From Candidatus Accumulibacter conexus (GTDB taxonomy: Bacteria; Pseudomonadota; Gammaproteobacteria; Burkholderiales; Rhodocyclaceae): 64,000 nucleotides of DNA. Made by a program: the position numbers and the translations under genes. The notes under the pieces are model-generated. The model did no database searches. It was not told the origin of the DNA and worked only from the letters and a program-made list of their open reading frames with translations. Position 1 is the first letter of the stretch. Each line of letters opens with the position of its first letter. Shown here piece after piece: positions 28,611 through 47,440 of this stretch. The DNA lies in the NCBI GenBank assembly GCA_017592775.1, contig JAGFNJ010000008.1, positions 48,464-112,463 on the forward strand. The letters run 5' to 3'.

Positions 28611-28857
28611 GTCCGGGCGCGAACGGAGGGCTGGATTCTACTGCCAAAGCGTGATCGTCGTCAGTCGCGTGCCGGCGGCTGGGCCCTCTGACTTGACGGT
28701 CTGCGGCAGGGCCTGGCGATGGCACCGGCGGGCGGGCCGTCGCCAGGCGGCAGCGGCGAAGCTCCGTGCCGCGTGTGCCGGCGTTGCCGCGGTACCGGCG
28801 GACGGGAAATACCGGTAAAGTGGGCGTTTTCGCGGCGAAGGGGGGACGGTGCGGGCG

Positions 28858-30006: not shown

Positions 30007-30014
30007 GAGCAGGC

Positions 30015-33000
30015 GTGGCGCGGCCTCTCTGGCAATGGCTCGCATGGCGCTTCATCGTCGCCGGCGTACTGCCGCTGCTGCTGGTGGCGGCGCTCTTGCT
30101 GCAGCTCCTGCTGCCGCAGGTGATCGCCGGGATCGAGGCGCGGCATGAGGTTCTTGCCCGCGCCATCGCCGGCCAGGTGGAGGAATACCTGCGCGGTGCC
30201 GCGCGCGAAATGTCCGCCCTGGCCGCTTACGTCGGGACGAGCGGCTGGCCGGAGCGTCCGCAATTGCAGGCGCTTCTCGATGCCCACGGCAGCTCCGGCG
30301 CCGTCTTCGCGGCGCTGTACGTCGCTGCCGGCGACGATTCGGTGCTGGCCGTTGCCCTGCCGCCCCGGCAACAGGTGCAGCGCGACGATCTGATCGGTGT
30401 CGACCTCTCGCGCTGGACCGTCCTGCACGAGGCACGCAGCCGGCAGGCACAGGTCTGGTCAGAGGTCTTCCTCTCGGTGGTCAGCGCCCGGCTGGCGGTC
30501 AGCCTGGCGATCCCGGTCGGCGACCACGTGCTGATCGGTGAAGTGGCGATCGACCGCCTATCCGAGTTCCTCGGCCGCCTGCCGACGGAGGCCGGCATGC
30601 TGACCATGGTCCTCGATCGTCGCGGCCAGATCATCGCGCAGTCACAGAGCCGTCCCGGCGGTCAGCAGATCAATCTCGGCCACCTGCCGATCGTCGGCGA
30701 AGCGCTGCGTGGACGCTTCGACCGGCATGACCTCGAACTCGACGGCGAACAGTTCATGGCGGCGCTGGTCAGCATTCCGCAAATGGGCTGGACGGTGCTC
30801 GTGGCGCAACCACGACCCGACGCCCTGCGGCCGTTCCGGGCAAGCATCTGGGTTCTCGCTGCCGGCGTCTTGCTGGCGCTGCTGCTGGCCAGTGGCGCGA
30901 CCCTGCTGCTCGCCCGCCGCAGCGCGCAGCGAATTGGTCGCTACACCGACCAGACACACGCCATTGCCGGCGGTGACTACGGTCGCCCCTGGCCGCTGCT
31001 GGAGATCAGGGAACTCGACCGTCTGGCTGCCGATCTCGATCGCATGTCGCAGGCGATTCGCCAGCGCGAGTTGGCGCTGCGCGCCAGCGAGGCACGTTTC
31101 CGCGACCTTTCGCAACTTGCTTCCGACTGGTTCTGGGAGCAGGACGAGGAGTTCCGTTTCACCTATTTCTCGTCCGGTGGCGGGATGGACGCTCTCGAGC
31201 AGGCGGGAATCGGGCCGCCGCAGATGCTCGGCAAGACGCGCTGGGAGCTGCCGATCGACCTCGGCGAGGCGGCATGGCGGGCCCACCGGGCGCTGCTCGA
31301 GGCACACCAGCCGTTTCGCGACTTCGAGTACCGGATTCGTTCGCAATCCGGGGCGTGGCACTGGTTCTCGGTCAGCGGCCAGCCGCTGTTTGACGACGCG
31401 GGGAACTTCGCCGGCTATCGCGGCACGGCGCGCGACATCACGCAGCGCAAGCAGGCGGACGAGGCCCTGCTGCAGGCCAAGCTGGTGCTCGAGAACAGCC
31501 CGGCGGTCGTCTTTCGCTGGCGAGCCGAGGCGGGTTGGCCGACGGTGTTCGTCTCCGACAACGTCCGCCAGTTCGGTTACTCGGCTGCCGAACTGCTCGA
31601 TGGGTCGCTGCCTTTCGCTGCGTTGCTGCATCCGGAGGACGTCGCGCGCGTCAGCAGTGAGGTCGCGTCGTATGCCGGGCAGGGATGCGATCGCTTCAGC
31701 CAGGAGTACCGGATCGTCACCAGGAGCGGCTCGATCCGCTGGGTCGACGACCGGACGGCGGTCGAGCGTGACGCGGCGGGCGAAATCAGCCATTACCAGG
31801 GAATCGTCATCGACATCAGCGAGCGCAAGCGTGTCGAGGCCGAACTGCGCCGGCTCAATCGACACCTGCGGATGATCAGCGATTGCAACCAGGCGCTGAT
31901 TCGCGCCCGCGACGAGAACGAGTTGTTGCAGACGCTCTGCGCGATCGTCGTCGACAGCGGTGGGTATCCAATGGCCTGGGTCGGTCGCGCCGAGCACGAC
32001 GCGGCGCAGCCGCTGCGGCCGCTGGCGTGGGCCGGCCACGAACCAGGCCATCTCGAGCAGAGCGCTGTCAACTGCGCCGCTGGCGAAGCCGGAGCAGGCG
32101 CCGCGGGACACCTCGTTCCCGAGGGTGAGGCACTGGTCATCAAGGATCTGGCGAGCGATCCGCGGTTTGCGCCCTGGCGCGAGCAGGCGCGCGCGCGTGG
32201 CTACGCCGCCCTGTGTGCGCTGCCGTTGCATGCCGGCGGCGAGGACTTCGGCGCCTTGAGCATCTACGCCGGGATCGCCGAGACTTTCGACGACGAGGAA
32301 GTGGCGCTGCTCAGCGAGCTGGCAGGCGACCTGGCTTTCGGCATCGCCGTGTTGCGGACCCGCGACGAGCGTGATCGGGCCGACGCCGCGCGGCGCGACA
32401 GCGAGGCGCGCTACCGTCTGCTCTTCGACAGCAATCCGCATCCCATGTGGGTATTCGACACCGCGACGCTGGCTTTCCTGACCGTCAACCAGGCGGCGAT
32501 CGCGGCCTATGGTTACTCGCGCGCCGAATTCCTCAACATGAGCATTCTCGACCTCGGTGCCGACGAGCGGACGCCGCTGCTTGCCGAGGACGTCATCGCC
32601 GTCGAGGAAGTCGGTGACTACACCGGTTTCTGGCGCCATCGGCGCAAGGATGGCGCGCTGATCGAAGTCGAGATCGTGTCGCATGCCCTTTCCTACGAGG
32701 GGCGGCAGGCGGAACTCGTCCTGGCCAACGACATCACCGAACGCCGGCGATCGGAGCGCGCGCTGCTGGCCAGCGAAATGAAGTACCGCGAGTTGGTGGA
32801 GAACGCCAACAGCATCATCCTGCGCTGGAATCCGGCTGGCGAGATCACCTTCATCAACGAGTACGGACTCCGGTTCTTCGGCTACACCGAGGAGGAACTG
32901 ATCGGTCGCCATGTCGTCGGCACGATCGTCCCACTGGCGGCGCGCGGCGGCGAGGAACTGCTGCCGATGATGGAGCGCATCTGCCGGCAGCCGGAGGACT

Positions 33001-34370
33001 TCGCGCACAACGTCAACGAGAACATGCGCCGCAATGGCGAGCGCGTCTGGGTCTCGTGGACGAACCGGGCGGTGTTCGACGACTGGGGACAGGTGATCGA
33101 GGTCTTCAGCGTCGGTGCCGACGTCACCGAACAGAAGCGGGCCGAGGCCGCCGTTCGCGAGAGTGAGGAACGCTTCGCCAAGGCCTTCCACTCGAGTCCG
33201 GCGCCGATGGCGATCAGTGCCATCGATACGGGCCGCTTCCTCGACGTGAACGAACAGCTGCACCGGATGCTGTGCTATCCGCGTGCCGAGCTGATCGGCA
33301 GCAGCTCGGTCGAGTTGGGAATCTGGGCCGATGCCGGAGTGCGCGAGCAGATGGTCGAGCAGCTCCGTGCGCGGGGGGCCTGCCGCGAGTTGCCGACGCG
33401 TTTTCGCACCAAGACCGGCGGTATCCGCGAGACGCTCTATTCGGGTGAGATCATCCGCCTCGGCGAGGAGGATGTCCTGCTGTCACTGATCTTCGACATC
33501 ACCGACCGCAAGCGGGCCGAGGAAGAACTGCAGCGCCACCGGGAGCATCTCGAGGAACTGGTCAGCGAACGGACGCGCGAGTTGCGCCAGGCGATGGAAC
33601 AACTCATGCAGACCGAGAAGCTGGCAGCCCTGGGCAATCTGGTCGCCGGCGTCGCGCACGAGCTGAACACACCGCTGGGCAACAGTCGCGTCGTCGCCAG
33701 CCTGCTCGCCGAGGAGTTGCGGGGCTTTGCCGCGGCGGTGGACGGGGGCAGCCTGCGTCGTTCCCAACTGGATCGCTTTCTTGGCCGCGGGCGCGAGGCC
33801 GTCGACCTCCTGGAGCGCAACAGCGCCCGTGCCGCCGATCTGATCGGTCACTTCAAGCAGGTGGCGGTGGACCAGAGCAGCGCCCGTCGCCGGGTCTTCG
33901 ATCTGCGGCAGACGATCGATGAAATGCTGAGCGCGCTCCGTCTGAGCTTCAAGCACAGTCCGCACCGGATCGACGTCGACATCCCCGCCGGACTGCTGAT
34001 GGACAGCTACCCGGGGCCGCTCGAGCAAGTGATCGCCAACCTCGTCGGCAACGCGGTCAACCATGGGCTGGCCGGCAGCGAGGGTGGGCAGGTCCTGCTG
34101 CAGGCGACTGCCGTCGGCGAGACGCAGGTGCTGCTGTGCTGTCGCGACGACGGTGTCGGCATGCCGTCAGCGACCCTGAAACGGATCTTCGAGCCATTCT
34201 TCACGACGCGACTGGGCCAGGGCGGCAGTGGCCTTGGCCTGTACATCGCCTATAACCTCGTCACCGGCGTGCTGGGCGGAACGATCGAGGTGGCCAGTGT
34301 GCCCGGCAAGGGCAGCACGTTCACGCTCAGCCTGCCCCGCAGCGCCCCGGAGCGCGGGCTTGCCGAGTGA
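30015..34370 (+). CDS. Multi-PAS/GAF sensor histidine kinase, 1,451 residues
   Basis: Starts at GTG with AGGAG 5 bases upstream. Order: transmembrane helix (about 8-37), periplasmic sensor region (about 38-275), second helix (about 278-300), HAMP-like linker, PAS about 365-480, PAS about 490-605, GAF about 610-790, three more PAS domains (about 795-1175) with PAC endings such as DITERRRSER and DITDRKRAEE, coiled coil (EELQRHREHLEELVSERTRELRQAMEQL), dimerisation domain with phospho-acceptor H1215 in GVAHELNTPLG, and a HATPase domain with NLVGNAVNHG, DDGVGM and GGSGLGLYIAYNLV. No receiver or output gene directly follows. It is translationally close to the binding lipoprotein upstream, which probably feeds it a ligand signal. 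The cognate regulator is not evident; the sigma-54 regulator at 37800 already has its own kinase. Confidence 0.88.
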   Translation: MARPLWQWLAWRFIVAGVLPLLLVAALLLQLLLPQVIAGIEARHEVLARAIAGQVEEYLRGAAREMSALAAYVGTSGWPERPQLQALLDAHGSSGAVFAALYVAAGDDSVLAVALPPRQQVQRDDLIGVDLSRWTVLHEARSRQAQVWSEVFLSVVSARLAVSLAIPVGDHVLIGEVAIDRLSEFLGRLPTEAGMLTMVLDRRGQIIAQSQSRPGGQQINLGHLPIVGEALRGRFDRHDLELDGEQFMAALVSIPQMGWTVLVAQPRPDALRPFRASIWVLAAGVLLALLLASGATLLLARRSAQRIGRYTDQTHAIAGGDYGRPWPLLEIRELDRLAADLDRMSQAIRQRELALRASEARFRDLSQLASDWFWEQDEEFRFTYFSSGGGMDALEQAGIGPPQMLGKTRWELPIDLGEAAWRAHRALLEAHQPFRDFEYRIRSQSGAWHWFSVSGQPLFDDAGNFAGYRGTARDITQRKQADEALLQAKLVLENSPAVVFRWRAEAGWPTVFVSDNVRQFGYSAAELLDGSLPFAALLHPEDVARVSSEVASYAGQGCDRFSQEYRIVTRSGSIRWVDDRTAVERDAAGEISHYQGIVIDISERKRVEAELRRLNRHLRMISDCNQALIRARDENELLQTLCAIVVDSGGYPMAWVGRAEHDAAQPLRPLAWAGHEPGHLEQSAVNCAAGEAGAGAAGHLVPEGEALVIKDLASDPRFAPWREQARARGYAALCALPLHAGGEDFGALSIYAGIAETFDDEEVALLSELAGDLAFGIAVLRTRDERDRADAARRDSEARYRLLFDSNPHPMWVFDTATLAFLTVNQAAIAAYGYSRAEFLNMSILDLGADERTPLLAEDVIAVEEVGDYTGFWRHRRKDGALIEVEIVSHALSYEGRQAELVLANDITERRRSERALLASEMKYRELVENANSIILRWNPAGEITFINEYGLRFFGYTEEELIGRHVVGTIVPLAARGGEELLPMMERICRQPEDFAHNVNENMRRNGERVWVSWTNRAVFDDWGQVIEVFSVGADVTEQKRAEAAVRESEERFAKAFHSSPAPMAISAIDTGRFLDVNEQLHRMLCYPRAELIGSSSVELGIWADAGVREQMVEQLRARGACRELPTRFRTKTGGIRETLYSGEIIRLGEEDVLLSLIFDITDRKRAEEELQRHREHLEELVSERTRELRQAMEQLMQTEKLAALGNLVAGVAHELNTPLGNSRVVASLLAEELRGFAAAVDGGSLRRSQLDRFLGRGREAVDLLERNSARAADLIGHFKQVAVDQSSARRRVFDLRQTIDEMLSALRLSFKHSPHRIDVDIPAGLLMDSYPGPLEQVIANLVGNAVNHGLAGSEGGQVLLQATAVGETQVLLCCRDDGVGMPSATLKRIFEPFFTTRLGQGGSGLGLYIAYNLVTGVLGGTIEVASVPGKGSTFTLSLPRSAPERGLAE

Positions 34371-35225: not shown

Positions 35226-37799
35226 ATGTTCAGCAATCTGAGAAAATATGCGGCTGCCTGCCTGGTGGCGGCTGGTGGGCTTCTCCTGACCTGTCTCTCG
35301 TCGTGGAACGTTCGGCAGGAACTGCAGACCAGCCACTTCAAGGAGTTCGAATGGGCGGCCGGAGACCGCATCCAGTCGGTTCGGGCTGTCGCCGAGCAGG
35401 GGCTGGATGCCCTGCTCGAGATACGCGGGCTGTTCTATGCGGCGCAGGGCATCGACGAAAAAGAGTTCCTGCTGTTCACCGATTCGGTGCTCAAGCGGCA
35501 CTCGTACATCGAGGCGCTCCTCTGGGCGCCGTTGCTGAACTCTTCGCGGCAGCCCCTGCCGACGACGGCGCCGGGCACGAGGTCGGTCCGGGGTACGGAC
35601 AGCGCTGCGGCGTCGACCGCGCCCATCGAGCAACTGCGCCTGCCGGTTCTGTTGTCGGCTGCGCGCAAGGCGCCGCTGGCGACGCCCGGGGTTGACCTGA
35701 ACGCGACGGGCGAACTGGCCGAACTGTTCCGGCGGGCGAGGGCAAGCGGCAAGGTGGCGGTCAGCGGCCGCATGCGGCTGGAGCGCCCGGGCGAGAAGGC
35801 GGCGCACGTCATCTACGCCGCCCTGCCGGTCTATGCGCCGGGTCAGCCGCGGCGTGTTGCCGCTGCCGAGCCAGCCGATCCGCTCGGCTTCGTCATCGGT
35901 GTGTACGACATCGAGGAACTGGTGCATGTCGCGATCAGTCTGCTCGAGCCACGCGGTGTCGAGGTGCTGGTGCGCGACGCCTCGGCCGAAGGCGAAGCGC
36001 AGTTTCTCCATTTCTACGCCAGCCGGCTGGAGCCACGCGCGGTCGCTGCCGCCAGCGGGCTGCTGCCGGAAGCCGACGAGGAACAGCCGCGGATGGTGGT
36101 GACGATTCCCGTTGGCGATCGCCAGTGGACGGTGACCTGCGTCGCCACGCATACCTTCCGCAGTGCCGAGGCCTTCACCAAGGCGCACTGGTCGGTGCTG
36201 GTCGGCGGGCTGGTGTGTACGGCGCTGCTGGGCCTCTACCTGGTGCGCAGCCGTCGCGAACTCGACAACCGAATCCATCTGACGCAGACGATCTACGAGC
36301 GTGAAGAGCTCTTCCGCCAGCTTGCGGAGACGGTGGATGTCGTCTTCTGGGCGATCAGCCCCGACGCGGCGCGGCTGGAGTACATCGGACCGGCGTTCAG
36401 GAAGATTGCCGGTGCGGAAGCGAGACTGGACGATCCCGCTGCGGCAGTCCTGTTCGACGTCTTCGCGCCTGACGATCGTGCCAGGCTGGTCGACGCGATC
36501 AGCCAGTTGCGTCGCGAGGGGGGGCATTTCAGTACCGTGTTGCCGCTCGCGGGTGGCGATCATGCGTTGCGCTGGCTGCGTGTCTGCGGATTTCCGGTGT
36601 GTGAGCCAGGTGTCGAGTTGGTCCGCATCGTCGGTTTTCTCGAGGACATCACCGAGCACAAGCTGGCCGAGGATGCGCTGCGCGATTCGGAGGCCAGGTT
36701 GCGCACGCTCTTCAACCATTCGCCCGACCTCATCTTCACCGTCGACGGCGAGGCCAACATCCTGCTCAGCAACCGGCCCTGGCCCCATCCCGCAGGCGCC
36801 GCGGGTGAGAAACGCTCGCCGCTGATCCTGCCGCCCGAGGTGCGCCCTGGCTATCTGCAGCGACTGCGGCACGTCTTTGCCAGCGGGCGTATCGAGCATC
36901 TGCAGTATCGCTCGAGTGGCGATACTTGGTGGGAGGTGCGCATGGTCCCGATCAGCTCAGCAACGACGGTCAAGGCAGCGATGGTGGTGATCAGCGACAT
37001 CACCGAAAACCGCAAGCTGCAGTGGCAGGCGATCCGCAGCTCGCGGCTGGCTTCACTGGGCGTGCTGTCGGCCGGCATCGCACACGAGATCAACAACCCC
37101 AATCATGCCATTCTGGCGAATGCGGGGCTGCTGGCGCGCATCTGGAACGATGCCCTGCCGATTCTCGACGAGTACGAGCAGGATCAGGGCGACTTCCTGC
37201 TCGCCGGGCTCGGCTTTGCCCAGGCACGGCAGACGATCACCCGCGGCATGAATGACATCGCCGAGAACGCCAAGCGGATCCAGAAGATCGTCGATAATCT
37301 CAAGCATCTCGGCAAGCAGGATCGCGGCCACATGGACGAACTGGCGGACATCGGCAGGATCCTGCACGCCGTCGCGACTCTGCTCGATGCGCGGATCAGG
37401 AAATGCACCGACTGCTTCGCCCTCGACCTGCCGGATTCGCTGCCGATGGTGCGGGGCAACGTGCAGCAACTCGAACAGGTGTTCATCAACGTCATCGTCA
37501 ATGCACTCGAGTCGCTGCCGGATCGCAGCCGCGCGGTCCGGGTCTCGGCGAGAGCGAATCCGGCAGAAGGCAGGCTGATCGTCGAGGTGGTGGACCAGGG
37601 AAAGGGAATCCCCGAGGATGTGATGGCGCAGCTTGGCGAGCCGTTCTTCACCACCAAGGCCGAGAGTGGCGGCACCGGGCTCGGACTGTCGATCTCTTCG
37701 TCGATCGTCGACAAGCATGGCGGCATGCTGCGCCTCGAGCCGAACCCCGAACTCGGGACGACGGTCAGCGTCGACCTGCCGATTGCCAGGGAGGAATGA
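35226..37799 (+). CDS. CHASE-domain sensor histidine kinase
   Basis: 857 residues. Transmembrane helix about 8-28, then an extracellular CHASE-type domain (RIQSVRAVAEQGLDALLEIRGLFYAAQGIDEKEFLLFTDSVLKRHSYIEALLWAP), second helix near 325-345 (WSVLVGGLVCTALLGLYLV), PAS about 360-480, a second PAS-like domain about 485-600, dimerisation domain with phospho-acceptor H620 in AGIAHEINNPNHAI, and a C-terminal HATPase domain with NVIVNALESL, DQGKGIP and [13 protein letters not shown]. The response regulator gene starts at the very next base after the stop, so the two form a two-component pair. The signal is unknown; CHASE domains sense small extracellular molecules. Confidence 0.9.
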   Translation: MFSNLRKYAAACLVAAGGLLLTCLSSWNVRQELQTSHFKEFEWAAGDRIQSVRAVAEQGLDALLEIRGLFYAAQGIDEKEFLLFTDSVLKRHSYIEALLWAPLLNSSRQPLPTTAPGTRSVRGTDSAAASTAPIEQLRLPVLLSAARKAPLATPGVDLNATGELAELFRRARASGKVAVSGRMRLERPGEKAAHVIYAALPVYAPGQPRRVAAAEPADPLGFVIGVYDIEELVHVAISLLEPRGVEVLVRDASAEGEAQFLHFYASRLEPRAVAAASGLLPEADEEQPRMVVTIPVGDRQWTVTCVATHTFRSAEAFTKAHWSVLVGGLVCTALLGLYLVRSRRELDNRIHLTQTIYEREELFRQLAETVDVVFWAISPDAARLEYIGPAFRKIAGAEARLDDPAAAVLFDVFAPDDRARLVDAISQLRREGGHFSTVLPLAGGDHALRWLRVCGFPVCEPGVELVRIVGFLEDITEHKLAEDALRDSEARLRTLFNHSPDLIFTVDGEANILLSNRPWPHPAGAAGEKRSPLILPPEVRPGYLQRLRHVFASGRIEHLQYRSSGDTWWEVRMVPISSATTVKAAMVVISDITENRKLQWQAIRSSRLASLGVLSAGIAHEINNPNHAILANAGLLARIWNDALPILDEYEQDQGDFLLAGLGFAQARQTITRGMNDIAENAKRIQKIVDNLKHLGKQDRGHMDELADIGRILHAVATLLDARIRKCTDCFALDLPDSLPMVRGNVQQLEQVFINVIVNALESLPDRSRAVRVSARANPAEGRLIVEVVDQGKGIPEDVMAQLGEPFFTTKAESGGTGLGLSISSSIVDKHGGMLRLEPNPELGTTVSVDLPIAREE

Positions 37800-39230
37800 A
37801 TGAAGGAGAAGCCGTTTTCCAGCCTGCCGGTCTTCCTCGTCGACGACGAGGAGTCCGTCCTGCACGCCACCGCCGCCGTCCTGCGCAGTGCTGGCGTGAC
37901 CCGGGTCGAGATGGTGGGCGACAGCCGGGAACTGCTGCCGGCCCTCGAGGTGCAGCCGGCGAGCGCCGTGCTGCTCGATCTCTCGATGCCGCATGTCAGC
38001 GGCAGCAAGCTCCTGCCGGATATCGTGCACCTCTACCCCGAGGTCCCGGTGATCGTCATGACTGCCGCGCAGGATGTCGAGACCGCGGTCAGCAGCATGA
38101 AGGAGGGAGCGTTCGACTACCTCGTCAAGCCGGTCGAGGAAAGCCGGCTGGTGGCGAGCGTGCGGCATGCCCTGGAAGTGCACTCGCTGCGCCGGCAGAT
38201 GGGGGTGCTCAAACGCTACCTGCTTTCGGACTGCCTGCAGAACAACGAAGCTTTCGCCGGCATCGTCACCAACAGCCGCAAGATGAGGGCGCTCTTCCAG
38301 TACCTCGAGGCGGTGGCGGGCACTTCGGAGCCGGTGCTGATTTCCGGCGAGACCGGCGCCGGCAAGGAGATGTTCGCGCACGCACTGCACAAGCTCAGCG
38401 GCCTCGGCGGCCAGTTCGTGCAGGTCAACGTCGCCGGTCTCGACGACACGCTGTTCTCGGATACCCTGTTCGGTCACCGGAAGGGCGCCTTCACCGGTGC
38501 CGACCAGTCGCGCGCCGGACTCATCGCCCAGGCTGCCGGAGGGACGCTGTTCCTCGACGAGATTGGCGACCTGTCGATGGCGTCGCAGGTGAAGTTGTTG
38601 CGCCTGCTGCAGGAGCACATGTACTTCCCGCTTGGCTCGGACGTCGCACGGCCGAGCGACGCGCGCGTGGTCTGCGCCACCAACTGCAACCTGGCACAGA
38701 TGATGCGCCAGAACCGCTTTCGGTCGGATCTCTTCTTCCGCCTCTCGGTGCATCAGGTCGAGGTGCCGCCGCTGCGGCAGCGCAAGGAAGACATCCCCCT
38801 GCTGCTGCAGCACTTCCTCGACGAGGCGGCTGCACTGATCCGCAAGCCTGCTCCGGAGCCGTCGAACGAACTCATCACGCTGCTTTCGAACCATCATTTT
38901 CCCGGCAATGTTCGCGAGCTGCGGGCGATGGTCTTCAATGCGATGGCCCTGCATCGCGGTGGGTCGATCCTGGCGATGGACAGCTTCCGTCAGGCGATCC
39001 AGAAACAGCAGAAGGCTGGTGCCGAGAGTCCGTCGGGTGACGCCGCGAGCGAAATGCCGATCGTCATTCCCGGCCGCTTTCCGACGCTCGACGAAGTCGA
39101 GGAGGCGCTGGTCGCGGAAGCGCTCAAGCGGGCCAAGGGAAACCAGGGGGTTGCCGCGACCCTGCTCGGCCTTTCCCGGCCGGCACTCAACCGGCGCCTG
39201 GCCCGGCGCGCGACGCGAGTCGAGTCCTGA
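37800..39230 (+). CDS. Sigma-54-dependent response regulator (NtrC/AtoC type)
   Basis: 476 residues. Receiver domain about 10-125 with D60 (LLDLSMP) as phosphorylation site and K in YLVKPVEE; AAA+ domain about 150-390 with Walker A GETGAGKE at 183-190, the sigma-54 contact loop GAFTGA at 229-234, Walker B GGTLFLDEIGDL and arginine fingers in FRSDLFFRLSV; Fis-type helix-turn-helix at the end (ALKRAKGNQGVAATLLGLSRPALNRRL). The intact GAFTGA means it should activate sigma-54 RNA polymerase. GGGAGG just before the ATG overlaps the end of the kinase gene. A sigma-54 promoter with a possible upstream inverted repeat lies directly downstream, before pit, so pit is a likely target (inference). Confidence 0.93.
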   Translation: MKEKPFSSLPVFLVDDEESVLHATAAVLRSAGVTRVEMVGDSRELLPALEVQPASAVLLDLSMPHVSGSKLLPDIVHLYPEVPVIVMTAAQDVETAVSSMKEGAFDYLVKPVEESRLVASVRHALEVHSLRRQMGVLKRYLLSDCLQNNEAFAGIVTNSRKMRALFQYLEAVAGTSEPVLISGETGAGKEMFAHALHKLSGLGGQFVQVNVAGLDDTLFSDTLFGHRKGAFTGADQSRAGLIAQAAGGTLFLDEIGDLSMASQVKLLRLLQEHMYFPLGSDVARPSDARVVCATNCNLAQMMRQNRFRSDLFFRLSVHQVEVPPLRQRKEDIPLLLQHFLDEAAALIRKPAPEPSNELITLLSNHHFPGNVRELRAMVFNAMALHRGGSILAMDSFRQAIQKQQKAGAESPSGDAASEMPIVIPGRFPTLDEVEEALVAEALKRAKGNQGVAATLLGLSRPALNRRLARRATRVES

Positions 39231-39424
39231 ACGCCCGTCGGCGTCTGCCGAGGGGAGACTTCCGCAGGTGACACCGGCGCATGCGAGCGCATCGCATTGC
39301 CGGTGAGGCGGCCGCGGCAACCAATCCCGGGACAACCGGCGACGGCGTCCGCGTGTTCGGCTGCCGCCGGGTGGGGGTGTGCGCTGTCGAGATTGCGAAC
39401 ATCTTTTCGCACGGTTGCCGAAGT

Positions 39425-39454
39425 TTCTGGAAAAGAACGATAAACGCTCCAGAA
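39425..39454. promoter_or_regulatory. Inverted repeat, candidate upstream activator site
   Basis: TTCTGGA (39425-39431), 16 bases, TCCAGAA (39448-39454): perfect 7-bp arms. Its centre is about 160 bp before the predicted sigma-54 start, the usual distance for NtrC-type enhancer sites. The sigma-54 activator gene ends about 195 bp upstream. No T-run follows, so a terminator is less likely. Confidence 0.4.
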
Positions 39455-39572
39455 TGATGCCATTCGAGTGAAGAGCCGTGCATTCTGTTACACCCCCTGG
39501 ACGAGCGCGCCGAATACCCCGGATGTCATACAACTATATGGTTTAATGTAACAATGCGGAGTTTCCCCTGTG

Positions 39573-39588
39573 TGGCATGGATCGTGCT
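39573..39588 (+). promoter_or_regulatory. Sigma-54 (-24/-12) promoter before pit
   Basis: TGGCATGGATCGTGCT matches the sigma-54 consensus TGGCACG-N4-TTGCW at 12 of 14 defined or near-defined... positions counted here as all except C6 to T and T12 to G; the invariant GG (39574-39575) and GC (39586-39587) have the correct spacing. Transcription would begin near 39600, about 55 bases before the pit ATG. Confidence 0.65.
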
Positions 39589-39654
39589 TGCGAAGACACT
39601 TGGCGCCTCTCGGGTGCGAGGGAATCCAAGACAACAACTACATGGGGCCGCGGC

Positions 39655-40695
39655 ATGAGCACATTGCTGATCCTGACGATCGTGACGGTTGCCATCGTCC
39701 TCTTCTTCGACTACACCAACGGCTTCCATGATGCGGCGAACATCGTCGCGACGATCATCGCCTCGCGCGCCATGACGCCGATACAGGCGGTCATCATCGT
39801 CGGCACCTTCGAGTTTCTCGGCCCTCTGCTGGGCGGGACGGCAGTTGCCAACACGATCGGGAAGTTCGTCACCCTCGGGGACGTGCAGGCAGTCCTGTCG
39901 TTGGCCATCCTGATCAGCGGACTGGTCGGCGCCATTGTCTGGAACCTTGGCACCTGGTACTTCGGCATCCCTTCCTCCTCCTCACACGCACTGGTCGGCG
40001 GGCTGATCGGCGCCGTCGTCGTCTCGGCCGGAGTCGACAACGTCGTCTGGGGCTTTTCGCAGATGCTGCAGGGTCAGTTGACCGGCATCATGAAGGTGCT
40101 CGCCAGCCTGGTACTGTCGCCGATCATCGGCTTCTGGGCGGGCTTCCTGATGCTGCGCCTGCTCAATGTGCTGCTGTTCACCGCCACGCCATCGGCCAAC
40201 AAGGGGCTGCGCTACGCACAGTTTCTCACCGCCGCCGGGCTCGCCTTCTCGCACGGTGCCAACGATGCGCAGAAGAGCATGGGGATGCTGACGCTGGCGC
40301 TGCTGCTGGGCGGCTTCATCCCGAGCTTCGAGGTGCCGTTCTGGGTGATGCTGGCCTGTGCCATCGCGATCACTCTCGGCATCCTCTCTGGCGGCTGGCG
40401 GATCGTTCGCACCCTCGGCTTTGCCATTTATCGCGTTCGCCCGATTCACGCGCTCAGTTCGCAGCTGACCTCGGCGGTCGTGATCCTCACCGCGTCGGTG
40501 ATCGGGGCGCCGGTGTCCACGACGCACGTCGTGTCGACGTCGATCATGGGCATTGGTGCCTCGGAGCGTCCGAAAGCCGTTCGCTGGAAGAAGGCCAAGG
40601 ATATCGGCATCACCTGGCTGATCACGATTCCGGGCTCGGCCGTGGTTGCCATTCAGACTTTCGCCATCGTCAACCTCTTTCTCCTAAAGGCCTGA
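39655..40695 (+). CDS. pit: Low-affinity inorganic phosphate transporter (Pit family)
   Basis: 346 residues, about ten hydrophobic helices. The duplicated PiT signatures are present: FDYTNGFHDAANIVATIIASRAM near the N-terminus and FSHGANDAQKSMGMLTLALL in the second half, plus GIPSSSSHALVGGLIGA and GAPVSTTHVVSTSIMG. Pit moves metal-phosphate into the cytoplasm driven by the proton gradient and can run in reverse, which matters in polyphosphate-cycling bacteria. The ATG at 39655 fits the first helix; the open frame extends upstream to 39577 but that part overlaps the promoter. A DUF47 protein gene starts 2 bp after the stop, the usual Pit partner. Confidence 0.93.
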   Translation: MSTLLILTIVTVAIVLFFDYTNGFHDAANIVATIIASRAMTPIQAVIIVGTFEFLGPLLGGTAVANTIGKFVTLGDVQAVLSLAILISGLVGAIVWNLGTWYFGIPSSSSHALVGGLIGAVVVSAGVDNVVWGFSQMLQGQLTGIMKVLASLVLSPIIGFWAGFLMLRLLNVLLFTATPSANKGLRYAQFLTAAGLAFSHGANDAQKSMGMLTLALLLGGFIPSFEVPFWVMLACAIAITLGILSGGWRIVRTLGFAIYRVRPIHALSSQLTSAVVILTASVIGAPVSTTHVVSTSIMGIGASERPKAVRWKKAKDIGITWLITIPGSAVVAIQTFAIVNLFLLKA

Positions 40696-40697
40696 AC

Positions 40698-41354
40698 ATG
40701 TCCAACGCCGCTACCGCCTCCACCTCGCTCACACGCCGCATCCTGCACCGTGTCTTTCCGAAGGTGCCCAATTTCTTTGCGCTGCTCGCCGAACAGAGTG
40801 CGCAGGTGGGCCACAGCGCAGCCCTGCTCGTGGACTACATGGGCTCCGGCACCTCCGAGGCGGCAAAGCGGATCGTCGATGCCGAGTACGAAGGGGATCG
40901 ACTCAAGGTGCGCAATCTGACGCTGCTGAACGAAGCCTTCGCGACGCCGATCGACCGCGAGGATCTGCACCGGGCGATCATCAACCTCGACGAGATCATC
41001 AACAGCTGCAAGACGATCGTCGTCGAGATGGACTCGGACGTTCTGGCGCTGAAAGCCGACAAGCATTGCCTGCAGATGGCGGTCTGCCTGAAGGACGGCG
41101 CCGAGGCCGTGGCGGCGGGTTACGGCCGCCTGGCGAGCGACCCGAAGGCGGGCCGCGCCGATGCCGAGAAATCCGACAAGGCGGTGCGCAGTCTGACGCG
41201 TACCCACCGCCGTGCTCTCGCCGAACTGTTCAACGACGATGACTTCCGCAACATCTTCCGGCGCAAGGAAATCTACAATCAGTTGCTGCGCGCCGGAGAT
41301 CGCCTGAACATCTGCAACAGCACGCTGCTCGACATCGTCGTCAAGCTCTGCTGA
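40698..41354 (+). CDS. DUF47 / PhoU-like phosphate transport accessory protein
   Basis: 218 residues, all-helical. The pattern LLAEQSAQVGHSAALLVDYM, IVDAEYEGDRLKVRNLTLLNEAFATPIDREDLHRAIINLDEIINS and FRRKEIYNQLLRAGDRLNICNSTLLDIVVKL is typical of the DUF47 family, which shares the PhoU helical-bundle fold. DUF47 genes are commonly next to pit and are thought to control Pit activity or phosphate homeostasis. It lies 2 bp from pit, with TAAAGG upstream inside the pit end, so it is co-transcribed. Confidence 0.9.
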   Translation: MSNAATASTSLTRRILHRVFPKVPNFFALLAEQSAQVGHSAALLVDYMGSGTSEAAKRIVDAEYEGDRLKVRNLTLLNEAFATPIDREDLHRAIINLDEIINSCKTIVVEMDSDVLALKADKHCLQMAVCLKDGAEAVAAGYGRLASDPKAGRADAEKSDKAVRSLTRTHRRALAELFNDDDFRNIFRRKEIYNQLLRAGDRLNICNSTLLDIVVKLC

Positions 41355-41419
41355 TTCCCGCCAACACCCCACCTGCAGCGCGCACGGTGCGGCCAGCGCC
41401 GGCGTGCTCGGTCAGGCGC

Positions 41420-41445
41420 AGCCAGGCGCGGTGATTCGCCTGGCT
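41420..41445. terminator. Stem-loop after pit-DUF47
   Basis: AGCCAGGCG-N8-CGCCTGGCT, perfect 9-bp arms, 65 bp after the DUF47 stop. There is no T-run, so it may end or protect the pit-DUF47 transcript by structure or Rho. Confidence 0.45.
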
Positions 41446-41737
41446 CTGCTCCCGGTCCCTGGACATTCCTTCCCGGCGTTCGCCTGTCCGATGCAGGCGG
41501 CTTCAATCGTGCTCCGCATGGCCGCGCGGCGCTTTGCCGGCGGTGTAACCTTTGCCGTCATCGCCGACCCCCGAGGAGACTCATCAACAGGCTGATTTGT
41601 AAACGGAAAGCGACTGCCGTCGAGTTCCGATGGCGGTTCGGTTGCTCATTTTGTTGCACCCCGTAGAACGCTTCGCGAAGGTTGCGAGCGACACCGGAGA
41701 GCCTGTTTTTTCGCGAGTATCGGTTCCCTGGGCTACC

Positions 41738-41753
41738 TGGCACGGCTTGTGCT
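41738..41753 (+). promoter_or_regulatory. Sigma-54 (-24/-12) promoter before CYTH-CHAD
   Basis: TGGCACGGCTTGTGCT matches TGGCACG-N4-TTGCW with a single mismatch (T12 to G), with correct GG-to-GC spacing (41739-41740 and 41751-41752). The expected start is near 41765, about 90 bases before the ATG at 41856. The -12 half (GTGCT) is the same as in the pit promoter. Confidence 0.65.
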
Positions 41754-41855
41754 TCATCAGCTTGACGAGACCTTGCAGCGCCACCCAGCGAAAGCAGTGT
41801 CTGCACCTCGTGTTGCCGTGGCTGCAATGCCCGTTCAAATCTCAGGAGCTTGAAG

Positions 41856-43337
41856 ATGAGCATGGAAACCGAACTCAATCTTTCACTGACGCCCGGCGTT
41901 GCCAGCCGCCTCGCCCGACATCGCCTGCTGACCGATGCCAAGCCGCTACGTGAGCGGGTGGTCAAGACCTATTACGACACCCCGGACCAGCGTCTGCGCC
42001 GCGAGCGGGTGGTCGTTGGCTACCGCAAGCAGGGGCGGCACTGGCTGTCGTCGGTGAAACGCGTGAGTTCAGCGGAAGGGCTGAGCACCGGACGTCGCCA
42101 CTGGGTGACGAACGGCAGCCTCGGCGATCTGGATTTCTCGCACGTCGACGACGGCTCGCTGCGCGAATGGCTCGAGTCCTTGCGCGAAGAACTGCGACCG
42201 GCCTTCACGACGAGCTTTACCCGCAGCGCGTGGGTGCTCGAGCCGCGCGACGGCGTGCGCATCGAACTGGCACTCGATCGCGGCTGGATCGAGGCGGAGG
42301 GGCGGCGGCAGCCGATCTGTGAGGTTGGCCTCGAACTGCTTGCGGGCGGTGTTGCCGACCTCTTCTCGACCGCCGGCGAGCTGCAGGCCGAGCTGGCGCT
42401 GCATCCGGAGCCGGTGAGCAAGTTCCAGCGTGGCTACGGGGTACTTGCCGACCAGGCACTGCAGGTCGTCAAGGCGGCGCCAGTGGAGACCGACGCCGGC
42501 ATGACCGTGATCGCCGGCTTTCGCACGATCGCCCTGGCTTGCCTCAAGCACCTGCAGAGCAACGAGAAGGGTGTCTGCGAAAGCGACAACCCGGAGTTCG
42601 TCCACCAGGCGCGGGTTGCCATCCGTCGCCTGCGTTCGGCCATTCGTGTCTGGAAGCCACGACTGCCGATGGGCTTCGTGGCCGACTTCGATCCGCTCTG
42701 GCAGGCTCTGGCGAGGCAGCTCGGCGAGACGCGAAACTGGGACGTCTTTCTTGCCGAAACCCTGCCGACGATCATCGCGGCGTTCCCTGCCTGCCCGCAG
42801 GCCGGTGAGCTGGCGCACTACGCCAGCCGCCGCTGTGCGGTCAGTCGCCAGGTCGCGGCCAGCACGCTGAGTTCTGGCGAGTATTCGCGCCTCCTGCTCG
42901 ACTTCACCGCCGCCGTTCTCGCATTGCCCGAGCGCAAAGATCGCCGGCTGGACGTCTTTGCTCCACGGTGCCTGGACAAGCGGGCGCGGAAAGTCTGGCA
43001 GCTCGCGCAGGAAGCGCTGACCAGCGACGCGACCGCGCGTCATCGTCTGCGCGTGGCGTACAAACGACTGCGTTACGCCCTCGAGTTCTTCGCGCCGCTG
43101 TTTCCCGGCGAGCTGCTGCGCAACTACCACCTCTCGGCCAGCGGTCTGCAGGAAATGCTCGGCCAGCTCAACGATCTGGCGGTGGCGCGTGAGCTGATCG
43201 ATCAGGCGCTCCCCGGCGCTCCGGGGGATCGCATCCGGTGCTGGCTGGAAGCTCGCAGCGATGGTCTGCTGCCGCAGCTCGAAGGGCTGCTTGGTGACTT
43301 CTACGGGCAGCGGGTTCCCTGGCAACCGCATTCCTGA
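41856..43337 (+). CDS. CYTH-CHAD domain protein (polyphosphate-associated)
   Basis: 493 residues. Residues 1-200 are a CYTH domain (METELNLSL carrying the ExExK-type strand, then YYDTPDQRLRRERVVVGYRKQGRHWLSSVK). Residues about 215-490 are a CHAD domain of helices rich in histidine, arginine and lysine (VHQARVAIRRLRSAIRVWKP, RHRLRVAYKRLRYALEFFAPLF). CYTH enzymes hydrolyse triphosphates including tripolyphosphate, and CHAD domains bind polyphosphate, so the protein likely works at polyphosphate. AGGAG lies 7 bases before the chosen ATG. It follows pit-DUF47 and is followed by two PhoU-like genes, consistent with a phosphate storage locus. A sigma-54-type promoter precedes it. Confidence 0.88.
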   Translation: MSMETELNLSLTPGVASRLARHRLLTDAKPLRERVVKTYYDTPDQRLRRERVVVGYRKQGRHWLSSVKRVSSAEGLSTGRRHWVTNGSLGDLDFSHVDDGSLREWLESLREELRPAFTTSFTRSAWVLEPRDGVRIELALDRGWIEAEGRRQPICEVGLELLAGGVADLFSTAGELQAELALHPEPVSKFQRGYGVLADQALQVVKAAPVETDAGMTVIAGFRTIALACLKHLQSNEKGVCESDNPEFVHQARVAIRRLRSAIRVWKPRLPMGFVADFDPLWQALARQLGETRNWDVFLAETLPTIIAAFPACPQAGELAHYASRRCAVSRQVAASTLSSGEYSRLLLDFTAAVLALPERKDRRLDVFAPRCLDKRARKVWQLAQEALTSDATARHRLRVAYKRLRYALEFFAPLFPGELLRNYHLSASGLQEMLGQLNDLAVARELIDQALPGAPGDRIRCWLEARSDGLLPQLEGLLGDFYGQRVPWQPHS

Positions 43338-43467: not shown

Positions 43468-44250
43468 GTGAATTCAGTGACGATGATCGAAGCGACAGCG
43501 GTGGTGCGCAGGGCGCGGCCGATTGCCCCTGGCCGGAAGCTTTCGGAGCTGTTCGGCACGATCGAGCAACAGGCGTTGACGGTGGTCAGGCTGGCCGGAG
43601 CGGCGGAGGACGTCCTGCAGGGACGGGAGTCGGCGCACTCGCTGCGGCTGTTCGAGCTCGATCAGCGCCGCGAGGAGCTTTGGTATCGCAGTCGCAGTGC
43701 CATCGCTTCGTTTGCCGACCAGTGGCGTGGCCTTGAAGACGTCGACGGGACGATGGAAAGTCTCGACCGCGCTGCCGCGGGGCTGTTTCGCAGCGCCACG
43801 GTTGGCCACGGCGGCGAGCCCGAAGCCGGCGGGTTTCTCGGCCGGATGCTGCGTCATATCCGGCGCGAAGGCGAGAGCCTGCAGGAAGGCTACGCCGGGC
43901 TCGCGCGCGGGTGGCCGTCCGCGCAGTTCGATGCCGACGATGCCCAGGGCAGCAGGAATCCGCTTGGCAGCTATCGCGGGCTGGCTTTGCTGGAACTGCT
44001 GTCGCCGGCTGCTGCGGGTGCGCCGTCCGCGCCGGCGGAACAACTGCCGCCGATGCACGGACCACACGCCGGCGCGGGCGCATCCTGGATCGCGCCGATG
44101 CATGCAGCGCTGAGCGACGTCGTCCGCGAGCTGGCGGGCGCCGCGGAGCTTCTGCTGCGCCTTTCGCAGCGATTGGCCGACGGGCCCCTGTTTCAGGATC
44201 AGCGGCGCGAGCCTGGCTGGGTCGTGCACCAGGCTTCTGCCGCGATCTGA
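43468..44250 (+). CDS. Helical protein, probably divergent PhoU/DUF47-like
   Basis: 260 residues; starts at GTG 43468 (GTG 43477 and ATG 43483 are alternatives). No firm family match. Predicted almost all-helical. The segment TIEQQALTVVRLAGAAEDVLQGRESAHSLRLFELDQRREELWYRSRSAIASFADQWRGLEDVDGTMESLDRA has the length and heptad layout of DUF47/PhoU bundles (linker helix, E..RE..W, then a 'PldReD' -like turn and LD). A glycine/proline-rich middle (GAPSAPAEQLPP) separates it from a last helix (LSDVVRELAGAAELLLRLSQRL). No signal peptide or membrane helix. Position between CYTH-CHAD and another PhoU-like gene suggests a phosphate role; this is inference. Confidence 0.55.
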   Translation: MNSVTMIEATAVVRRARPIAPGRKLSELFGTIEQQALTVVRLAGAAEDVLQGRESAHSLRLFELDQRREELWYRSRSAIASFADQWRGLEDVDGTMESLDRAAAGLFRSATVGHGGEPEAGGFLGRMLRHIRREGESLQEGYAGLARGWPSAQFDADDAQGSRNPLGSYRGLALLELLSPAAAGAPSAPAEQLPPMHGPHAGAGASWIAPMHAALSDVVRELAGAAELLLRLSQRLADGPLFQDQRREPGWVVHQASAAI

Positions 44251-44346: not shown

Positions 44347-45066
44347 ATGGAAACTCAGGTTCGAGTGGCAGAGCGGTCCGCCGTCTCGACGTCGATCGCA
44401 ATCACTCTTGACGGTTATCTCGACGGCGTCGCGGATGCGAGCATGATCTTCAGGTCAGCGGTCGACGCCTACCTGCGTGAGGGTTCCGAGAGAGCCTGCT
44501 GGCAGCTCGCGCGACGGATTGCCGACATCGTCCGCACGCTCGACGACATGCAGCAGACGCTGGAGATGCGTCACGTCGCGCAGTCGGCTCGCGGCGCGGT
44601 GGGGTCCGCCATGTTCGAGCCGCTGACCGACCTGAGCCGCCTGGTGAAGGACATGAAGCGTCAGATCACCGGTTTTGCCATCGAGTGCGGATTCACCCGT
44701 TGCGGCCGGCGGGTGCCGGCGCCTCTGGTTGCGGACGTACAGGAATTGACCGACGAGGTCTGCGCCGCGATTGACGCCCTGGTCGAGGCCAGCCGCCCCG
44801 GCCCGCAGGGCTGGCAGCAGCCAGCGGCGGATGCGGACGGCCGCGGTGTGGGCTGGCATGAAGCGCGGGCGGACCGCCTGTCCACAGCGCTCGTGCGCCG
44901 GATTCTTGCCGACGAGGCGCTCGAGGTCAAGGCGCGGCTTCTGCTCGCGCAGTTCGTCGAGGAGATCGATCGACTCGCCGATCAGGCCGAGGGCGTGGCC
45001 GGCGCGCTGCAGACCCGCAGCATGGGTGGGAGTGGTGGCGGCGCTGCTGTCGCTCAGGCCCATTGA
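44347..45066 (+). CDS. Helical protein, probably PhoU/DUF47-like
   Basis: 239 residues, with CAGGAGAAG before the ATG. All-helical with a PhoU-like pattern: GYLDGVADASMIFRSAVDAYLREGSERACWQLARRIADIVRTLDDMQQTLEM, then MFEPLTDLSRLVKDMKRQITGFAIECG, and a closing helix LLLAQFVEEIDRLADQAEGVAGAL that resembles the end of DUF47 proteins. The C-terminal tail is glycine-rich. No membrane segment. It has little direct similarity to the preceding protein beyond layout, so the two are not recent duplicates. Likely cytoplasmic, function unknown, probably linked to phosphate or anion transport by its neighbours. Confidence 0.55.
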   Translation: METQVRVAERSAVSTSIAITLDGYLDGVADASMIFRSAVDAYLREGSERACWQLARRIADIVRTLDDMQQTLEMRHVAQSARGAVGSAMFEPLTDLSRLVKDMKRQITGFAIECGFTRCGRRVPAPLVADVQELTDEVCAAIDALVEASRPGPQGWQQPAADADGRGVGWHEARADRLSTALVRRILADEALEVKARLLLAQFVEEIDRLADQAEGVAGALQTRSMGGSGGGAAVAQAH

Positions 45067-45229: not shown

Positions 45230-47440
45230 GTGGAATTGACGGTCACACTCAGGAACGACAAGCTGGTCGGCGACTTCTGGGGCGGACTGGCGGCGATGCT
45301 GGTCGCGCTGCCGTCGGCGATTGCCTTCGGGGTCACCATCTACGCTGCCATCGGTCCGAGCTACGCCGGTCTGGGCGCGCTGGCAGGCATCCTTGGGGCG
45401 ACCGCCCTGGGACTGGTGGCGCCGGCCTTCGGCGGCACCAACCGGCTGATCACGGCGCCGTGCGCCCCGGCAGCAGCGGTTCTGTCGGCCTTTGCCATCG
45501 AACTCGTGCAGCACGGTGTCGCGGCGCCGTCGATCGTCCTCATGCTGACCGCCCTTGGCCTGGTATCCGGGGTCGTGCAGTTGCTTCTCGGCTTCATGGG
45601 CATCGGCAGCCTGATCAAGTACATCCCGTTCCCGGTCGTCAGCGGCTACCTGACCGGCGTCGGACTGATCATCATCGGCAGCCAGATTCCGAAGTTCCTG
45701 GGCGCGCCCAGTGGCACCTCGTGGTGGCGGACGTTGATCTCGCCCGAGCTCTGGCAGTGGCAGAGCGCACTGATCGGGCTCGTCACGGCAGCGGTGATGC
45801 TCGGTGCCCCCCTGCTCACGCGCGTCGTGCCGGCGGCGATCCTCGGGCTGCTGGCCGGTGTGCTGAGCTATTTCGGGCTGGCCTCGATGGACGAGTCGCT
45901 GCTGGTGATGGCAGGCAACAAGATGATCATCGGTCCCCTCGGTGGCACGGCCTCGAGCATGCTCGAGGCGATCACCGGCCGCTGGCAGGAAATCGGCGAG
46001 CTCAAGCTGAGCCAGATCGGCAGCCTGCTCGGGACAGCCTTCACGCTCGCGGTACTGCTGTCGATCGACACGCTGAAGACGGCGGTCGTTCTCGATGCCC
46101 TGACGCGGGGTCGCCACGACTCCAACCGGGAACTGGTGGCGCAGGGCCTCGGCAACGTTGCCTCGGCGTGCGCCGGTGGCATGCCGGGCGCGGGGCAGAT
46201 GGGGGCGACGCTGGTCAATCTGGCGAGTGGTGGCCGGACCCGGGTGTCGGGCGTCGTCGAAGGCGTGTTGTCGCTGATCGCCTTTCTCGCTCTCGGGAGT
46301 TTCATCGCCTGGATCCCGGTGGGAGCGCTGGCGGGCATCCTGATCGTCGTCGGCATCCGGATGATCGATCGGCACAGCCTGCACCTGCTCGAGTCGCCAT
46401 GGACGCTGCTGGACTTCATGGTCATCGTCGCCGTGGTCGTCGTTGCCGTCGGCTACAGTCTGATCGCCGCCTCGGGCGTCGGCATTGCCCTGGCGATGTT
46501 CCTCTTCATCCGCGAGCAGCTGAGCAGTACGGTGATTCGTCGCAAGCTCGATGGCGGCAGCCGCTACTCGAAGCGGGTGCGCCTGCGTCACGAAATGGAG
46601 TTGCTCGAAGCCCAGGGGCATCAGACGGCAATCCTCGAGTTGCAGGGCAGCCTGTTCTTTGGCACCAAGGACCAGTTGTACACGGCGCTCGAGCCCGAGC
46701 TTGCCCGGCGTCGCTTCGTCGTTCTTGACATGCGCCGGGTGCAGTCGGTCGATGTGACGGCCGTGCACCTGCTGAGCCAGATCCGTGACTCGCTGATCGA
46801 GCGCGATGCCTTCCTGATTTTCAGCAGCCTGTCGCACGTCCTGCCGAACGGACGCAACATCGCCGAGTTCTTCGACCAGATGGAACTCACCCGGATGACC
46901 GAGCATGTCAAGGTGTTCCCCGAACTCGACGACGCGATCGAGTGGATCGAGGACCAGATCCTCGGCCAGAGTCCGGCGCAGGATCCGACCCTGGCGGCGC
47001 TGGAACTCAACGACCTCGAACTCTTCCGCGACCACAAGGAAGAGACGCTGATCGATCTCGAGGCCTGTCTCGAACGGCGGACGATCGAAAAGGGCGGCAA
47101 GGTCTACTCCTTCGGCGATCCGGGCAACGAACTCTACCTCATCCGCAAGGGGGCGGTGCGCATCACCTTGCCGGCCAACGGCGAGGCGTCGGGTCACCAC
47201 GCGCTGACCTACGGCCGCGGCGACTTCTTCGGCGGCATGGCATTCCTGTCGCAGATGACCCGCTTCAACGATGCCACCGCGCTCGAGGAGAGCGAGCTTT
47301 TCGTGCTGCAGCGGGAGCAGTTCGAGAAGCTGCGGGAAGAGCACAAGCGCCTTGCCTGCCATCTGGTGGAGGCGGTCGCCAAGGTTCTCGCGCTGCGCCT
47401 GCGCTACTCGGACAAGGAACTGATGGCCATGCAGGAGTAG
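45230..47440 (+). CDS. SulP family anion transporter fused to STAS and cNMP-binding domains (copy 1)
   Basis: 736 residues, GTG start. Residues about 15-430 are the SulP/SLC26 membrane domain (DFWGGLAAMLVALPSAIAFGVTIYAAIG, GTNRLITAPCAPAAAVLSAF, MGIGSLIKYIPFPVVSGYLTGVGLIIIGSQIPKFLG). Residues about 455-565 are a STAS domain (ILELQGSLFFGTKDQLYTAL, VVLDMRRVQSVDVTAVHLL). Residues about 605-735 are a cyclic-nucleotide-binding-like domain (VYSFGDPGNELYLIRKGAVRITLPANG, RGDFFGGMAFL). SulP proteins carry sulfate, bicarbonate or other anions; the attached effector-binding domain suggests control by a nucleotide or similar ligand. A close paralogue lies at 57902. It follows the phosphate block on the same strand after 163 bp; a universal stress protein gene follows. 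Confidence 0.88.
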   Translation: MELTVTLRNDKLVGDFWGGLAAMLVALPSAIAFGVTIYAAIGPSYAGLGALAGILGATALGLVAPAFGGTNRLITAPCAPAAAVLSAFAIELVQHGVAAPSIVLMLTALGLVSGVVQLLLGFMGIGSLIKYIPFPVVSGYLTGVGLIIIGSQIPKFLGAPSGTSWWRTLISPELWQWQSALIGLVTAAVMLGAPLLTRVVPAAILGLLAGVLSYFGLASMDESLLVMAGNKMIIGPLGGTASSMLEAITGRWQEIGELKLSQIGSLLGTAFTLAVLLSIDTLKTAVVLDALTRGRHDSNRELVAQGLGNVASACAGGMPGAGQMGATLVNLASGGRTRVSGVVEGVLSLIAFLALGSFIAWIPVGALAGILIVVGIRMIDRHSLHLLESPWTLLDFMVIVAVVVVAVGYSLIAASGVGIALAMFLFIREQLSSTVIRRKLDGGSRYSKRVRLRHEMELLEAQGHQTAILELQGSLFFGTKDQLYTALEPELARRRFVVLDMRRVQSVDVTAVHLLSQIRDSLIERDAFLIFSSLSHVLPNGRNIAEFFDQMELTRMTEHVKVFPELDDAIEWIEDQILGQSPAQDPTLAALELNDLELFRDHKEETLIDLEACLERRTIEKGGKVYSFGDPGNELYLIRKGAVRITLPANGEASGHHALTYGRGDFFGGMAFLSQMTRFNDATALEESELFVLQREQFEKLREEHKRLACHLVEAVAKVLALRLRYSDKELMAMQE

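Follow-up and report, generated by a model that had tools for sequence, protein, structure and literature searches.

A predicted sigma-54 two-component system for phosphate-transport genes in Candidatus Accumulibacter

Introduction

How is the phosphate transporter gene pit controlled in Candidatus Accumulibacter conexus, where it directly follows the genes of a sensor histidine kinase and a response regulator? We analysed a stretch of 64,000 nucleotides (contig JAGFNJ010000008.1 of assembly GCA_017592775.1, positions 48,464 to 112,463), called the window here, with positions counted from its first letter. The original prediction held that the pair controls pit from a sigma-54 promoter, with a TTCTGGA/TCCAGAA inverted repeat as a possible enhancer. 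From comparison of related sequences, the pair most likely switches on the phosphate transporter and neighbouring phosphate-storage genes, separately from the Pho system, and we consider it very probable that it is a sigma-54 two-component system whose dedicated targets are phosphate-transport genes. The conserved putative enhancers are other sites than the one first named.

Pit exports phosphate with a proton, and one paper describes it as the main source of the proton motive force by which Accumulibacter takes up fatty acids (PMC12604563). In one experiment pitA transcription was higher at high phosphate (PMC12604563), which fits a regulated pit. A specific regulator with exact DNA sites would make the control of Pit-driven phosphate flux a testable question, and it would bring PhoU-like proteins and a CHAD protein into one regulon with phosphate flux.

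Kinase and regulator

As originally predicted, the open reading frames (ORFs) of the kinase (35226-37799) and the regulator (37800-39230) are adjacent, with a gap of 0 base pairs (bp); the pair, pit and the genes and sites described below as far as SulP (47440) lie on the + strand. Pfam finds in the kinase a CHASE sensor domain (residues 76-261, E 1e-15), PAS domains, a HATPase domain (E 3e-23) and a HisKA match of 23.2 bits, under its cut-off of 26.9 bits. A CHASE domain is suggestive of a small external ligand. The regulator has REC (PF00072), Sigma54_activat (PF00158), AAA_lid and HTH_8 (PF02954) domains, with PF00072, PF00158 and PF02954 all above cut-off. Its AAA+ domain carries the full GAFTGA that had been reported before (residues 229-234), and the recognition helix reads LSRPALNRRL in the alignment. 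By its sequence it is thus an NtrC-family sigma-54 activator with all parts present: REC, AAA+, GAFTGA and a Fis-type helix-turn-helix (HTH) domain. In the segment LLDLSMPH, the phospho-acceptor Asp is aligned in 32 of the 32 proteins shown, and many gammaproteobacterial orthologues have GAFSGA. RpoN is encoded in the same genome (PF04552, E 2.5e-66).

Of the 117 NCBIfam models matched, 25 were shown, and the regulator scored under the cut-off of every one of these. The top scores were those of AtoC (330 of 714 bits) and NtrC (329 of 559 bits), and among these 25 models it fell below the cut-offs for NtrC, AtoC, ZraR, GlrR, FlbD and LuxO equivalogs.

The predicted pit promoter and its putative activator sites

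The product of pit belongs to the Pit family of low-affinity phosphate transporters by profile (PF01384, 298 bits against a cut-off of 33.7), and its transport activity is predicted. The listed ORF, and with it the original prediction, started pit at 39577, inside the -24/-12 site described below. Homology across 20 genomes (with the start masked in G116) moved the start to the ATG at 39655, giving a gene at 39655-40695 for a protein of 346 residues.

Our genus sample comprised 28 genomes. The regulator was found in 26 of them at the strict cut-off and in a 27th (G107) in two frames, and pit stands directly behind the regulator in 20 of the 28. The original prediction had proposed phylogenetic footprinting of the regulator-pit region as a check. 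When this was run on the 20 genomes, the intergenic region (417-914 bp) was mostly poorly conserved, and three elements persisted: two activator sites and a -24/-12 site.

The -24/-12 site is TGGCATGGATCGTGCT at 39573-39588, the predicted sigma-54 promoter that had been placed upstream of pit before. The pattern alone is weak evidence, with two matches in the window against 0.34 expected from shuffling and two or more in 3 of 100 shuffles; conservation is what makes the pit promoter convincing. The box reads TGGCAY-N6-TGCT in 18 of the 20 genomes and CGGCAC-N6-TGCT in G123, and G122 has none proper; it is thus conserved, facing pit, in 19 of 20.

The putative enhancers are two inverted GGGGTGTnAC/GTTACACCCC sites. 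Site 1 (GGGGTGTGCGCTGTCGAGATT, 39374-39394) is a weaker copy of the genus consensus GGGGTGTnACGTTTCGACATT. Site 2 (GTGCATTCTGTTACACCCC, 39478-39496; consensus GTGCATTTTGTTACACCCC) is inverted relative to site 1 and lies 104 bp from it and 95 bp from the -24 box. In all 23 loci measured, 102-105 bp separate sites 1 and 2. The distance between site 2 and the -24 box is 92-96 bp in 22 of these loci and 103 bp in the remaining one, G105. These spacings are about ten and about nine helical turns, as would be expected if both dimers face the polymerase. At up to three mismatches, the search of the genome itself for further enhancer sites returned two sites only, both in the island.

Two other readings of this intergenic region were weighed here. 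The first is that the regulator binds TTCTGGA/TCCAGAA. The repeat is indeed present at 39425-39454, with perfect 7+7 arms and at a plausible distance. Of 100 shuffled sequences, 6 had a match to a repeat of this type at up to two mismatches. Both arms, however, occur in only 1 of the 20 genomes. The right arm is already missing in the nearest relative, whose regulator is 98% identical, while the GTTACACCCC site is retained. On conservation we rejected the repeat as the enhancer, and its use by the regulator is scarcely credible.

The second reading is that pit is constitutive or under PhoB, with the motifs serving another function of the island. In one study PhoR-B proved conserved across all of its Accumulibacter genomes (PMC11131965), and a partial Pho-box-like string, ATGTCATACAACTATATG, occurs upstream of pit at 39523 (the Escherichia coli box is given in PMC3333781). 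In the alignment, inspected by eye and with no dedicated Pho-box search, this string is lost even among the five closest genomes, whereas the sigma-54 box facing pit is retained in 19 of 20. We therefore regard this reading as improbable, and prefer control of pit from the sigma-54 promoter.

Long leaders upstream of pit

A further alternative is that the sigma-54 promoter mainly makes a leader RNA, a small RNA or a leader peptide between regulator and pit, and that pit has its own promoter. In 15 of the 20 genomes the promoter is 189-611 bp from pit. We scanned 13 of these 15 long-leader genomes (G122 and G125 were set aside, and G116 was cut at its masked run), and in 10 of the 13 leaders five or six consecutive G occur at a nearly constant place, 105-113 bp downstream of the -24 box; in some of them ATGTCA comes next. 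A hairpin with a T-run after the promoter was seen by eye in G101 and G103. On the other side, the promoter is only 80-82 bp from pit in the window and four close relatives, no shared ORF between promoter and pit was seen by eye, and six loci had no Rfam match. A terminator-like hairpin was found in just 2 of the 13 leaders by a crude scan. No sigma-70-like site was detected in 39200-41900, where shuffled sequences too give only 0.4. Taken together, a promoter serving mainly a leader product is unlikely, though less so than constitutive or PhoB-dependent expression, and direct sigma-54 control of pit remains our preferred explanation.

The G run is seen, for example, in L127, L128, L131, L138 and L139; the leader of the window is short and has no G run. 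With ATGTCA, the run could be a leader peptide start or an RNA element. By eye, the hairpins of L141 and L144 (G101 and G103), each with its T-run (...GGCTGCGTTGTTTTTT), look alike; they lie after the sigma-54 promoter and before a SulP gene, and are possibly a small RNA or an attenuator.

The module is repeated within the island and across the genus

The stretch considered by the original prediction ended with pit at 40695, and the transcription unit probably extends further. A gene for a DUF47 (PhoU-like) partner of Pit follows at 40698-41354 (Pfam, ORF list), and with its 2-bp gap it is probably co-transcribed with pit. Behind it comes a second copy of the regulatory module and then a gene for a CYTH-CHAD protein (41850-43337, by Pfam). 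CHAD domains bind polyphosphate.

A matrix was built from 23 loci, including five in which pit does not follow the regulator; G122, which lacks a consistent promoter, and G125, a near-copy of G018, were excluded. In the window its second-best promoter and second-best site 2 together form this second module at 41540/41644/41738, with spacings of 104 and 94 bp. Site 1 (41540-41560) is weak alone, with only the sixth-best site-1 score in the window. Site 2 is GCTCATTTTGTTGCACCCC (41644-41662), and the predicted -24/-12 promoter is TGGCACGGCTTGTGCT (41738-41753).

Of 34 loci from the genus, 30 contained site-2/promoter pairs, 59 in total, and 55 of these pairs had the 92-96 bp spacing; 20 first-order resamplings gave no pair. 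The matrix was trained on first-module sites, and therefore the first modules among the 59 pairs are not independent evidence; independence holds for the sites at CYTH-CHAD, at u260 and outside the genus. The module lies upstream of 19 of 21 copies of pit, 17 of 19 copies of the CYTH-CHAD gene and 12 of 17 copies of u260, described below (protein matches starting after query residue 60 were excluded, except for u260). DUF47 stands directly behind a module in 3 of 24 copies (G105, G107 and G110), all without pit between promoter and DUF47; the promoter and sites persist in these three genomes although no pit precedes DUF47. In L143 (G110) and L148 (G105), where promoter and enhancers are retained, an apparent remnant of C-terminal pit codons was seen by eye before DUF47.

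The exact three-part pattern occurred in 19 of 22 genus members and in none of 373 other genomes of the family, and a reversed control gave 1 match in 395. Across the wider class, 2 of 369 genomes contained the enhancer pair and 1 matched the reversed control, and these occurrences are probably chance.

Regulator orthologues of 83-99% identity were found in 20 named records: 17 carry the label Accumulibacter, one is labelled Dechloromonas, and two are assigned to Pseudomonadota only. The earlier guess of a polyphosphate accumulator fits these labels.

Other genes of the island

Three more genes follow CYTH-CHAD. The first, u260 (43468-44250), encodes a helical protein of 260 residues whose structure model, of low confidence, weakly matches the PhoU-like fold (best E 0.015). 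The second, u239 (44347-45066), encodes a protein of 239 residues with a PhoU/DUF47 fold (PDB 2iiu, E 3e-5). The third encodes a SulP-family anion transporter with STAS and cNMP-binding domains (45230-47440, by Pfam). The gaps before u260, u239 and SulP are 130, 96 and 163 bp. The matrix scan found no third module in the window, and none before u260 here. With these gaps and no third module found, the three genes may be transcribed from the second promoter, and SulP is a candidate last gene of the CYTH-CHAD unit.

Just upstream of the kinase-regulator pair, at 28849-34370, the window has a gene for a periplasmic binding protein (28849-30006) and then one for a Cache/PAS/GAF sensor kinase of 1451 residues.

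Several islands differ in arrangement. L141, L144, L148 and L149 have an extra module upstream of the kinase, oriented away from it. In G101, G105 and G107 (named records L262, L218 and L248) the extra upstream module points towards a distant Pit-family gene and a gene resembling u239, and some islands have a distant (25%) Pit-family gene elsewhere. One complete three-part pattern (L166, G110:C13:121201-121412) is located off the island.

Orthologues outside the genus

In the family sample outside the genus (101 genomes), the best-scoring regulator match had 40% identity and listed rows reached 45%. Orthologues at 53-64% identity were found in Gammaproteobacteria, Magnetococcales and a few others. 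In the available DNA around 35 such close orthologues, a gene for Pit or a Na+/phosphate (Na+/Pi) cotransporter lies beside 18, and beside none of 25 less similar homologues (Fisher p 6e-6); L217 was scored as a match on two short Na+/Pi fragments only. Among the 22 close-orthologue loci on pieces of at least 10 kb, 14 have a phosphate transporter. Pfam assigns Na_Pi_cotrans in L204, L209, L213, L215, L226 and L252, and PhoU domains in L209 and L226.

The enhancer recurs as well. The Accumulibacter-trained matrix scored above 18 in 11 of the 35 close loci, where shuffled sequences predict 0.75, and in 1 of the 25 distant ones. In eight gammaproteobacterial loci (L203, L208, L209, L210, L212, L213, L215 and L252), the enhancer has its inverted partner 100-110 bp upstream and is followed at 90-94 bp by a -24/-12 box that matches 9-11 of 12 consensus letters. 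No phosphate transporter was found in L210 although the enhancer module is present. The enhancer also tracks the recognition helix, being found in 11 of 17 loci with RPALNRRL and in none of 18 with other helices. In L204, scored as a miss, a degenerate copy was seen by eye. Where the helix reads SRQTLNYRL, in Magnetococcales, pit adjoins the pair and the RPALNRRL-type enhancer is lacking. Some Magnetococcales store polyphosphate (PMC8786505).

In a tree of 32 regulators, three controls (at most 38% identity) were separated by a long, fully supported branch. The tree leaves the joining point of Accumulibacter unsettled, and thus it does not support lateral transfer.

Some further features of these loci were recorded. 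L226, L228 and L232 have TGGCAC/TGGCAT boxes ending in TGAG, and L222, L224 and L232 share a TGAAAA...TTTTCAyCCCCC-like string (both by eye). In L203, L204, L208, L209 and L212 a small ORF with hydrophobic stretches (88-156 residues as called, two cut by contig ends) follows the enhancer module. It precedes the Na+/Pi cotransporter gene where both are present, and the two tested had no Pfam match.

Proposed mechanism and evidence against it

Footprinting, the repeated modules and the co-variation of enhancer and recognition helix together give strong support to the view that the adjacent pair controls pit through sigma-54; of the original prediction, this central claim stands, and the named enhancer and the pit start do not. 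In the mechanism we propose, the membrane-bound CHASE kinase would sense a signal and phosphorylate the regulator, which would bind the two inverted sites at 39374-39394 and 39478-39496 and oligomerise. Looping of the DNA would bring it to RNA polymerase-sigma54 at 39573-39588, where its GAFTGA ATPase would open the pit-DUF47 promoter, activation being the presumed direction of control. The second module, with the same geometry, would place the CYTH-CHAD gene in the same regulon, and the PhoU-like genes u260 and u239 and the SulP gene are perhaps members too.

Several observations weigh against this interpretation. At pit itself, G122 retains only site 2 (GTGCATTTTGTTACACTTG), having lost site 1 and a properly spaced -24/-12 site; site 1 in the window and its four closest relatives deviates from the consensus (GTGTGCGC); and the 189-611 bp between promoter and pit in most genomes mean that a leader element may matter. 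Elsewhere in the genus, SulP stands directly behind a module in only 2 of 26 copies. Outside the genus, the 53% identity cut that defines the close orthologues was set post hoc, after the data had been seen, the 35 loci represent 29 genomes, some of them with several loci, many contigs are short, and the transporter profiles were partly built from the same 35 loci. Moreover, 8 of the 22 loci with at least 10 kb show no phosphate transporter, and 6 of the 17 RPALNRRL loci have no enhancer above 18, three of these having less than 500 bp downstream. In the Magnetococcales with pit beside the pair (L220 and L222-L224), neither a matching enhancer nor a well-placed -24/-12 site was found.

It is somewhat probable that lineages as distant as Accumulibacter, Magnetococcales and Chromatiales-like bacteria share an undescribed sigma-54 phosphate-transport two-component system, apart from PhoBR. 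Such a system would control whichever phosphate transporter the lineage has (Pit, a Na+/Pi cotransporter or perhaps SulP), and with it PhoU-like partners and CHAD proteins that bind polyphosphate.

Comparison with known systems

The pair resembles NtrBC, DctBD, ZraSR and AtoSC in domain order, GAFTGA, Fis-type HTH domain, and upstream sites with a -24/-12 promoter. It differs from these NtrC-family systems in its predicted targets, which are phosphate-transport and polyphosphate-related genes. The NtrC enhancer also differs from GTTACACCCC. Among the open-licence papers listed in our searches, we recognised no report of sigma-54 control of pit or of Na+/Pi transporters.

Microlunatus phosphovorus, a polyphosphate accumulator, is an actinobacterium. 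Its PolS-PolR system already provides a published case of two-component control of pit (PMC6754071), and the novelty first claimed for regulation of pit is narrowed by it. It is nevertheless a different system, since the PolR site, GTTCACnnnnnGTTCaC, is of another kind than GTTACACCCC (PMC6754071). In the text of that paper 'NtrC' occurs 0 times, and the matches to 'sigma' shown are a supplier's name and a reference title (PMC6754071).

AioXSR, a two-component system of the sigma-54 type, also has a -24/-12 promoter with two palindromes upstream, and its islands often have pst genes (PMC3834237). AioXSR, however, activates arsenite oxidase, and nothing resembling that enzyme was found by Pfam among the nine window proteins scanned.

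PhoR-PhoB is similar in that phosphate-transport genes are under a two-component system. Its regulator family and promoter type are other than those of the sigma-54 pair. PhoR-B is present in Accumulibacter besides the pair (PMC11131965), and given its conservation there the pair would bring the number of phosphate-linked systems to two. That the pair is linked with phosphate transporters in other lineages too suggests a circuit for phosphate control alongside the Pho regulon.

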